Assembly (NCBI RefSeq): GCF_003330765.1
Contig: NZ_CP024904.1
Coordinates: 186,001-250,000 of the forward strand
Origin: Burkholderia pyrrocinia
GTDB lineage: Bacteria; Pseudomonadota; Gammaproteobacteria; Burkholderiales; Burkholderiaceae
Length of the DNA: 64,000 nt
Direction of reading: 5' to 3'
The position numbers were made by a program, and so were the translations under genes. A model generated the notes under the pieces. It searched no databases. It had not been told where the DNA came from and saw only the letters and a list, made by a program, of their open reading frames with translations. Below are positions 17,962 to 20,055 of this stretch, piece by piece (the first letter of the stretch is position 1; each line of letters begins with the position of its first letter).

Positions 17962-18879
17962 ATGTCAACCAGCCTGTCCGAAGGCGCCGCGCGTCGCGAC
18001 GCCGGCCCGCAGCGGCCTGCCCGCGCGACGCTCGCGCGCCGACGCAACCGCGCCGCGCTGCTGTTCGTGCTGCCGGGTTTCGCGCTCTTCACCGTGTTCG
18101 TGCTGTACCCGATCGTCAGCAGCATCTGGCTGAGCTTTCATCACTGGGACGGGATGACGCCGATGACCTATGCGGGGCTCGACAATTATCGCGAGCTGCT
18201 GCAGTCCGACACGTTCTACGTCGCGCTGAAGAACAACCTGGTCTGGCTCCTGCTGTTTCTCGCCGCACCGCCGCTCGGCCTCGCGCTCGCGCTTTACCTG
18301 AACCAGAACGTGTTCGGGATCCGGCTCGTCAAGTCGCTGTTCTTCGCGCCGTTCGTGCTGCCGGGCGTCGTCGTCGGCCTCGTGTTCTCGTGGTTCTACG
18401 ACCCGACGTTCGGGTTGCTCAAGCTGGTCGTCGGGCACGGCATCCCGGTGCTCGGCGATCCGCGCTATGCGACCTACGGCGTGATCGTCGCGGCGCTGTG
18501 GCCGCAGATCCCGTTCTGCATGATCCTCTACCTGACCGGGCTCACGGGCATCAACAGCGAAATCGTCGAGGCCGCACGGATGGAAGGCGCGCGCGGCTTC
18601 ACGCTGCTGTGGCACGTGATCCTGCCGCAGTTGCGCCCCGCCACGTTCATGGCGGTGGTGCTGACCGTGATCGGCGCGCTGCGCAGCTTCGACCTGATCT
18701 CGGTGATGACGGGCGGCGGCCCGTTCGACAGCTCGACCGTGCTCGCGTACTTCATGGTCGACCAGGCGATCAAGTACTACCGAGAAGGCTATTCGGCCGC
18801 GATCGCGGTGGTGCTGTTCGCGATCATGCTCGTCTATATCGTGTGGCAGCTGCGCAAGCTGGTGCGCGTGGAATCTTAG
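17962..18879 (+). CDS. Sugar ABC transporter permease (MalF/GanP type)
   Basis: 305 residues with six membrane segments and the EAA coupling loop (EAARMEGARGFTLLWHVILPQLRP) near residue 205-230. Forms the membrane channel with the permease encoded at 19204. The final residues are LVRVES followed by TAG. That TAG lies inside the left terminal inverted repeat of the 318-bp repeat element that starts at 18875, so the natural C-terminus may have been trimmed by a few residues when the element arrived. Confidence 0.88.
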   Translation: MSTSLSEGAARRDAGPQRPARATLARRRNRAALLFVLPGFALFTVFVLYPIVSSIWLSFHHWDGMTPMTYAGLDNYRELLQSDTFYVALKNNLVWLLLFLAAPPLGLALALYLNQNVFGIRLVKSLFFAPFVLPGVVVGLVFSWFYDPTFGLLKLVVGHGIPVLGDPRYATYGVIVAALWPQIPFCMILYLTGLTGINSEIVEAARMEGARGFTLLWHVILPQLRPATFMAVVLTVIGALRSFDLISVMTGGGPFDSSTVLAYFMVDQAIKYYREGYSAAIAVVLFAIMLVYIVWQLRKLVRVES

Positions 18880-19192
18880 GGTCTGTTTACATATGGAACG
18901 CACAAGCGAATGCCCGAAATCGCTCGTAGGGCAAGAAGTGAGGAGCGCCGTTTGGCCGAGCCAAACGCCCCGAAGGAAGTCCCCTTGGGGGACAAGCGAC
19001 GAGCGACGCCGCCATACGGGCGATTTCGGGCATTCCCGTGGAATGTATTTTTTAATTTGGGGTTGCCACGAGAACGACCGCTCGCCGCGTTGCGCTCCTT
19101 GCGAATACGTCAGTATTCGCGGCGTCACGCGCCTCGCGAGCGGCCGTTCTCGTGGCAACGCTTGTGCGTTCCATATGTAAACAGACCCTAAG
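18875..19192. mobile_element. 318-bp MITE-like element with perfect 34-bp terminal inverted repeats
   Basis: The arms at 18875-18908 (CTTAGGGTCTGTTTACATAT...) and 19159-19192 are perfect reverse complements over 34 bases. Inside are two further large palindromes: GAATGCCCGAAATCGC at 18908-18923 pairing with 19020-19035, and a 23-base arm at 19062-19084 (GTTGCCACGAGAACG...) pairing with 19137-19159 with one mismatch. Each encloses small hairpins (18949-18967, 18979-18993, 19101-19120). The single strand would fold as a three-way junction. It has no coding capacity and sits between two permease genes. The outermost bases supply the upstream gene's stop and part of the downstream gene's AAGGA site. 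No clear target duplication is seen. Confidence 0.8.
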
Positions 19193-19203
19193 GACCGCCA
19201 TTC

Positions 19204-20055
19204 ATGTACCCGATGCCCGTATCACGCTGGGGACGTTCGTCCCGCTGGCTGTACCGCCTGTCGCTGCCGTGCGCGCTCGTGCTGTGGCTCGTGCCGCTGC
19301 TCGCGGTGCTCGTCACGTCCATTCGCTCGACCGACGAGGTGATGGCCGGCAATTACTGGGGCTGGCCGAAGCAGTTCGCGTTCGTCGACAACTACGGCAC
19401 CGCGCTCACGCAGACGCCGATGCTCCACTACTTCGCGAACAGCCTGCTGATCACGCTGCCGTCGGTCGCCGCATCGATCCTGCTCGCGTCGCTCGCGGGC
19501 CATGCGCTCGCGAACTACCGGTTCCGCGGCAACGCCGTGCTGCTCGGGCTGTTCGTCGCCGGCAATTTCGTGCCGATCCAGATCCTGATGATTCCGGTGC
19601 GCCAGATCATGCTCGACATCGGCCTCTACAACACCGTGTGGGCGCTCGTGCTGTTCCATACCGCGTTCCAGACCGGGTTCTGCACGCTGTTCCTGCGCAA
19701 CTTCATCCGCGAGTTGCCGTTCGAGCTGATCGAGGCCGCGCGCGTCGAGGGCGCGTCCGAGTGGGCCATCTACTGGCGCGTCGTGCTGCCGCTCGTGCGG
19801 CCGGCGCTCGCGGCGCTCGCGATCCTCGTGTTCACATTCGTGTGGAACGACTACTTCTGGGCGCTGTGCCTCACGCAAGGCGACGATGCGGCACCGATCA
19901 CCGTCGGCGTCGCCGCGCTCAAGGGGCAGTGGACCACCGCCTGGAACCTCGTGTCGGCCGGTTCGGTGCTCGCCGCGCTGCCGTCGGTCGCGATGTTCTT
20001 CGCGATGCAGAAGCACTTCGTCGCAGGGCTCACGTTCGGCGCGACGAAAGGCTGA
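19204..20055 (+). CDS. Sugar ABC transporter permease (MalG/GanQ type)
   Basis: 283 residues, six membrane segments, EAA loop EAARVEGASEWAIYWRVVLPL near residues 178-198. It pairs with the permease at 17962. The ATG at 19204 is preceded by AAGGA at 19190-19194, which straddles the right end of the inserted 318-bp element; a second ATG at 19213 is possible. Separation from the first permease by a strongly structured element is unusual for an obligate heterodimer partner. Confidence 0.87.
   Translation: MYPMPVSRWGRSSRWLYRLSLPCALVLWLVPLLAVLVTSIRSTDEVMAGNYWGWPKQFAFVDNYGTALTQTPMLHYFANSLLITLPSVAASILLASLAGHALANYRFRGNAVLLGLFVAGNFVPIQILMIPVRQIMLDIGLYNTVWALVLFHTAFQTGFCTLFLRNFIRELPFELIEAARVEGASEWAIYWRVVLPLVRPALAALAILVFTFVWNDYFWALCLTQGDDAAPITVGVAALKGQWTTAWNLVSAGSVLAALPSVAMFFAMQKHFVAGLTFGATKG

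Follow-up and report, generated by a model that had tools for sequence, protein, structure and literature searches.

An unannotated branched palindrome between two permease genes

The window, by which we mean the whole 64-kb stretch of DNA analysed, carries two genes for ABC transporter inner-membrane permeases on the + strand (17962–18879 and 19204–20055, both PF00528), and further upstream lie genes with matches to an ABC ATPase and to a solute-binding protein. Between the two permease genes lies a 312-nt sequence (18878–19189; + by the order of its two arms, 1 then 2) that begins with AGGG and ends with CCCT, and that we interpret below as a complete copy of subfamily A of a family of non-autonomous transposons (MITEs). 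It consists of a 285-nt element and a nested 27-mer. The TAG stop of the upstream permease gene (18877–18879) stands at its left edge, and directly 3′ of it follows AAGGA, the likely ribosome-binding site of the downstream permease; the position of the stop and the AAGGA are both intact despite the insertion.

An earlier interpretation of this DNA from its letters and open reading frames (hereafter the sequence-only reading) had described a perfect 34-bp outer inverted repeat, abutted exactly by inner pairs of 16 and 23 bp, and had proposed that the whole folds as a three-way junction. The outer repeat was recovered as described (18875–18908 and 19159–19192, 100% complementary). Its outermost three bases (CTT/AAG) are flank, which leaves 18878–19189 as the element proper and 31-nt terminal inverted repeats that form the outer stem, P1, at 18878–18908 (left arm) and 19159–19189 (right arm), both given, like the stems and hairpins below, on the + strand. 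The first 15 nt of the left arm, AGGGTCTGTTTACAT, are also both ends of an insertion sequence (IS), L366, discussed below. The perfect 16-bp stretch at 18908/19035 is present within inner pair 1, whose full extent is 18903–18932 and 19011–19040 (30 nt, 87%). Within it, 18908–18932 and 19011–19035 form the stem of arm 1 (P2), which carries a distal hairpin, GTTTGGCCGAGCCAAAC (18950–18966), common to subfamilies A and B. Inner pair 2, the stem of arm 2 (P3; 19062–19085 and 19136–19159), was also found; it is not perfect, having one mismatch over 24 nt (96%). The distal hairpin of this arm is GCGAATACGTCAGTATTCGC (19101–19120), and a T-rich linker of 26 nt (19036–19061) separates the two arms. 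The stems abut to within one base rather than exactly: positions 18908 and 19159 each close two stems.

Folded as RNA, the sequence adopts the predicted outer stem with two arms, at a stability far beyond that of shuffled sequence (−210.2 kcal/mol compared with a shuffled mean of −114.7; z = −16.4; 0 of 100 shuffles as good). The DNA fold gave z = −16.8, again with 0 of 100 shuffles as good. Rfam covariance models run against the 64-kb window returned no match at the gathering cut-off, a promoter scan found none, and a terminator scan found one where 0.6 were expected. We agree with the sequence-only reading that no protein is encoded: the program-made open reading frames inside the element reach 93–95 amino acids (fewer than 100), and their frames are apparently not kept, because A copies without a deletion and without the nested 27-mer range from 282 to 287 nt and differ by lengths that are not multiples of three.

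The element is one of a dispersed family with two subfamilies

Copies elsewhere in the same genome, matches throughout the genus and the empty sites described below rule out that the element is unique or a piece of some longer gene. Its own genome (8.0 Mb, 3 contigs) holds five full copies of subfamily A, the window copy included, the other four being 87–88% identical to it, and seven copies of a sister subfamily, B (ends AGGGCCTGTTCCCGC...), six of them full and one internally deleted. Matches at E ≤ 1e-3 occurred in 27 of the 41 genomes searched. These comprised all 25 genomes of the same genus, own genome included (19 of them at E ≤ 1e-80), with at most 18 candidates scored per genome, and two of the 16 genomes from outside the genus, both with weak matches. 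Among named Burkholderia and Paraburkholderia genomes, 29 stretches contained the exact 23-base A end. A plasmid search with the whole element yielded eight records, all of them element copies, and extended the hosts to Paraburkholderia sprentiae and a Caballeronia (L129 and L130). The eight records from a plasmid search with the element end alone contained no IS, and a phage search with the element gave no matches.

In total we collected 73 distinct copies, 64 of subfamily A and 9 of subfamily B, some of which are mutually orthologous. Six of the 64 A copies are internally deleted. Two copies, L069 and L088, are identical and occupy two different sites of one genome. P1 measures 31 nt in both subfamilies, and the stems and the 50–51-nt arm interiors are found again in copies of A and of B and in those from Paraburkholderia and Caballeronia. 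Between A and B, the distal hairpins of both arms are largely conserved and the basal stems are different; the Caballeronia copy L130 looks intermediate in this comparison.

Two lines of evidence on the copies were set aside. Orphan ends were considered as ends of longer elements, and 20 were fetched, two of which (L258 and L259) reached contig ends. None had an opposite end at IS distance except L257, the one for which open reading frames were listed, and there we judged the opposite end to be a chance match, since it falls on a 496-aa reading frame. We also dropped a count of open frames that end at the TAG of the element (45 of 73), given that GC-rich DNA often has such frames by chance.

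Flanks suggest TA targets; empty sites fit less uniformly

At the window site, three of the 14 loci listed carry the element (own genome, G050 and G044) and 11 have a plain operon junction, which identifies the window element as an insertion. The sequence is TC-(G or A)-TAAGGA without the element and TCTTA-GGG...CCC-TAAGGA with it. The presumed 2-bp target duplication would be the TA at 18877–18878 on the left, which is also the TA of the upstream permease stop, and the TA at 19189–19190 on the right. Other sites are likewise found in both states: at that of L183, G019 carries the element and G024 has an empty site, and that of L069 is empty, and reads CTAG, in 20 of 20 loci. Across the collection, 47 of 73 copies are flanked by T...A, with CT/AG in 19 and TT/AA in 13; as background, TA makes up 1.3% of the dinucleotides in the 64-kb window and CTAG occurs there four times. 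These flanks fit a duplication of TA together with a preference for palindromic targets.

Empty sites gave a less uniform picture. We queried 22 insertion sites and obtained a readable empty counterpart for 17 (none for L007, L064, L070, L186 and L187). Exact TA was present at five of the 17: L001, L010 (4 of 5 loci), L069 (all 20), L183 (1 of 1) and L182 (1 of 3). At six others (L002, L006, L073, L166, L184 and L188), the empty site was one base off TA: the empty relatives have CA, AA, TC or TG where the inserted element is bounded by TA at left and right. Another six (L003, L004, L005, L009, L012 and L013) gave no clean fit. The one-base-off sites may represent targets that were TA in particular lineages or a replacement of two bases, and both are possible. 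Because TA is rare, insertion may pick lineages in which the site had just become TA; such new, lineage-specific TA sites could cause part of the mismatch at empty sites, not all of it.

An IS5-family element has the same ends

A full-length transposon with the same ends was found through its transposase, the ends being read afterwards. A scan of four genomes with PF13340 gave 23 loci, only one of which, L314 (G019), had ends like those of the MITE family. When the first reading frame of L314 was used as a protein query, 17 loci were obtained, two of them, L341 and L342, with ends of the A type. The second of these two, L342, is 828 bp long and encodes a 263-aa transposase with PF13340 and PF01609 domains. 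This protein scores 287 bits against NF033580 (cut-off, 110), a type of IS5-family transposase that we take to be the group named IS427. One end of L342 matches the MITE in full and the other has one difference. In L366, a relative of about 828 bp on a Burkholderia aenigmatica plasmid, both ends read TAGGGTCTGTTTACATT, and each agrees with the MITE in 15 of 15 bases. In other IS copies the likeness is lopsided: on plasmids of Burkholderia multivorans, Burkholderia glumae and Pandoraea, one end is a good match and the other a poorer one. In several copies (L365, L367, L370 and others), a good match is confined to one end.

L342 and L366 thus share with the MITE its first 15 bases (at one end and both ends, respectively) and the TA flanks, but differ from it in size, in carrying a transposase gene and in their interior. 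The interior of L366 matches that of the MITE no better than shuffled sequence does. As its interior owes nothing to the IS, the MITE is not a simple deletion derivative of it. For subfamily B, the nearest counterpart is L314 itself, an IS5-family element whose ends, TA-GGGCGTGTTCACACTAT, resemble the B ends, GGGCCTGTTCACGCTAAT, and which is flanked by CTAG, although the match to the B ends is only partial. Proteins related to that of L314 were detected at E ≤ 1e-15 in 10 of 65 genomes of the genus, own genome not among them.

L342-like transposases (E ≤ 1e-30) were present in 13 of 65 genomes of the genus, and in none of own genome, G024 and G019. G024 and G019 hold several MITE copies that are about 98% alike. 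Conversely, G006 contains the IS and gave only three weak element matches among up to 18 candidates scored. IS and MITE are therefore not found together where the copies look youngest, and they match in kind, not yet in company.

The three helices keep their pairing as the sequence changes

We counted covariation in 49 of the 64 A copies, leaving out the six with internal deletions, seven with the nested 27-mer, L088 and L199. Pair cells were standard in 97.2% of cases, compared with 94.3 in shuffles. Both sides had changed in 36 of 114 pairs (9.8 in shuffles) and in 139 cells (21.3 in shuffles), counts that are inflated by relatedness among the copies; sliding the pairing partner abolished the signal. 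In helix 1, two-sided changes were seen in 84 cells and one-sided changes in 5, and the inner helices were 99.1% (helix 2) and 99.6% (helix 7) paired, with compensated changes.

When the subfamilies are compared, P1 has 11 pairs, and the base of P2 nine, that differ on both sides between A and B with the pairing kept. For P3, the same comparison showed eight one-sided, unpaired changes at the base, which we attribute to a misalignment by one column because the P3 of B is paired in its own fold. Orthologous copies show the paired change directly: those at the window site, and those at another site common to four genomes, have changed in both arms together, in place. Hence all three helices keep their pairing as the sequence changes: between copies, between subfamilies (counted for P1 and the P2 base, and for P3 in the fold of B itself) and in place at two orthologous sites.

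Covariation of this strength, together with distal hairpins that are largely conserved between A and B where basal stems are not, could also be expected of a functional structured RNA family, either a non-coding RNA or an mRNA-processing element, whose fold is selected on the transcript and whose mobility is secondary. The sequence-only reading had named a family of structured RNA as one possibility, beside a MITE and a dispersed repeat with a role in mRNA processing. Selection on one RNA strand predicts that G-U is tolerated over A-C and that one strand folds better than the other. Among copies of at least 280 nt (58 of 64 A and 8 of 9 B), the + strand folded better in 52 A copies, which are related and so do not represent 52 independent events, and in three B copies, which amounts to no strand preference in B. 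Within the pairs common to the folds of both strands, G-T exceeded A-C by 26 to 13 columns and by 58 to 30 cells. However, an A-C mismatch occurs at P1 position 25, outside that set of pairs, in 20 of 58 copies, and counting it brings the cells to 58 G-T compared with 50 A-C. An earlier count on the + strand fold was dropped, as that fold admits G-T but not A-C. The preponderance of two-sided over one-sided changes in helix 1 and the lack of an Rfam match in the window also speak against an RNA under selection. Of the structured-RNA proposal, then, strongly conserved base pairing stands, and selection on one strand was not shown in both subfamilies.

The pattern of pairing instead speaks for correction of one arm from the other through template switching, more than for selection on one RNA. 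According to PMC8794818, template switching should give compensated changes that span several bases; the hairpins treated there, whose stems are kept perfect by such changes, belong to RNA genes, and the stems here to a mobile element. We prefer correction of this kind as the likely source of the covariation and regard a functional RNA as a minor and unlikely rival.

A MITE probably mobilized by an IS5-family transposase

The suggestion, first made from the sequence, that the element is a MITE is supported by the number of copies, by the empty sites, by flanks centred on TA and by the IS5-family element that shares its ends, and we think it probable that it was mobilized in trans by an IS5-family transposase. 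A transposase of the NF033580 type would have bound the common ends of about 15 bp and moved the element in trans, duplicating TA. Replication template switching would then largely keep the pairing: where one arm is copied from the other, compensated pairs arise in one event. At the window site, the insertion landed at the junction of stop codon and ribosome-binding site between the two permease genes and places a branched hairpin of about 310 nt in the presumed operon mRNA, where double-strand-specific RNA processing would probably act on it. According to PMC10969869, mRNAs that contain Correia or ERIC elements are changed in their processing or stability, and by analogy the window element might have a similar effect on the operon mRNA.

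A more far-reaching idea, to which we give some small chance, is that the branched fold serves as a conserved mobile chassis. Stem lengths and distal hairpins would be fixed, terminal repeats would be swapped by paired changes to suit different IS5-family transposases, and insertion would replace a near-TA dinucleotide with the TA ends of the element itself rather than plainly duplicate TA.

Two further explanations of the pairing compete with this one. Hairpin-dependent transposition is known from REP/IS200-like systems, and the pairing might be kept because a folded single DNA strand is needed for movement, in place of movement by an IS5 DDE transposase. The whole-element pairing on DNA would accord with this, as would the many sites without a clean duplication, six of which resemble a two-base replacement by TA; the match of both element ends and flanks to an IS5-family IS makes such a route very unlikely. 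An ordinary decayed MITE, with an outer repeat kept only by transposase binding and inner arms that are chance relics, would agree with the near-invariance of P1 end positions 2–4 and 7, within the first 11, and with the internally deleted copies, but is scarcely credible given the paired inner helices with their compensated changes, the recurrence of stems and arm interiors from A and B to Paraburkholderia and Caballeronia, and P1 positions 20–22 and 29–31, which lie beyond the part shared with the IS and are at least as invariant as the first 11.

We regard the element, probably mobilized in trans, as part of a new family of MITEs, of a kind already known, in which whole-element pairing is unusually strong. 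The best matches in the open-licence PMC literature included no paper on it. As portrayed in PMC10969869, bacterial MITEs such as Correia elements, ERIC and QMITE2 resemble it in being short, non-coding and dispersed, with terminal inverted repeats and stable stem-loops, and in being presumed to be mobilized in trans by an IS. What may set the Burkholderia family apart is its three-way junction of the whole element, with two arms of about 100 nt and co-varying helices; it also has two subfamilies with different ends and the same interior plan.

This reading accounts for an unannotated structure that recurs across Burkholderia. It also provides a natural case of a mobile DNA element with strong covariation, a feature usually taken to prove a functional RNA, and the orthologous copies form a data set for the rate at which one arm of a palindrome is corrected from the other. 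The youngest-looking copies raise the question of which transposase moved them.

Nested insertions in arm 1

The window copy itself carries an insert, a nested 27-bp hairpin, GCCCCGAAGGAAGTCCCCTTGGGGGAC (18967–18993, +), which L099 shares and the orthologous copy L091 lacks. The hairpin is GC-rich (GCCCC..AGGAAGTCCCCTTGGGGGAC), and its 25-bp core occurs 14 times in own genome with at most two mismatches (reversed control, 0); six of these 14 copies are nested in MITEs. Others lie in core genes: in etfA, kdpA and kdpB (loci L372, L381 and L383), own genome is longer at the hairpin by 27 bp (nine codons, in frame) than a relative, which was a Burkholderia cenocepacia plasmid in the case of etfA and Mycetohabitans in that of the two kdp genes. 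At kdpB, Burkholderia arboris (L388) has the same length as own genome and a diverged sequence. This effect resembles that of the in-frame Rickettsia palindromic elements, which PMC10969869 names. At L371, L380, L382 and L384, also in own genome, the short hairpin stands in a common longer context (ctcaagaaaacgccgggccgcc... with variations) that is apparently another dispersed repeat.

An IS110-family element with an RNA-guided transposase (PF01548, PF02371) lies inside two MITE copies of G024, L165 and L166. We rejected it as the autonomous partner: it is a passenger that occupies one and the same position within arm 1 of the two copies. An IS110 end-like remnant was also seen in the B copy L266, and this remnant and the shared position in arm 1 suggest that the MITE may be a preferred target of IS110.
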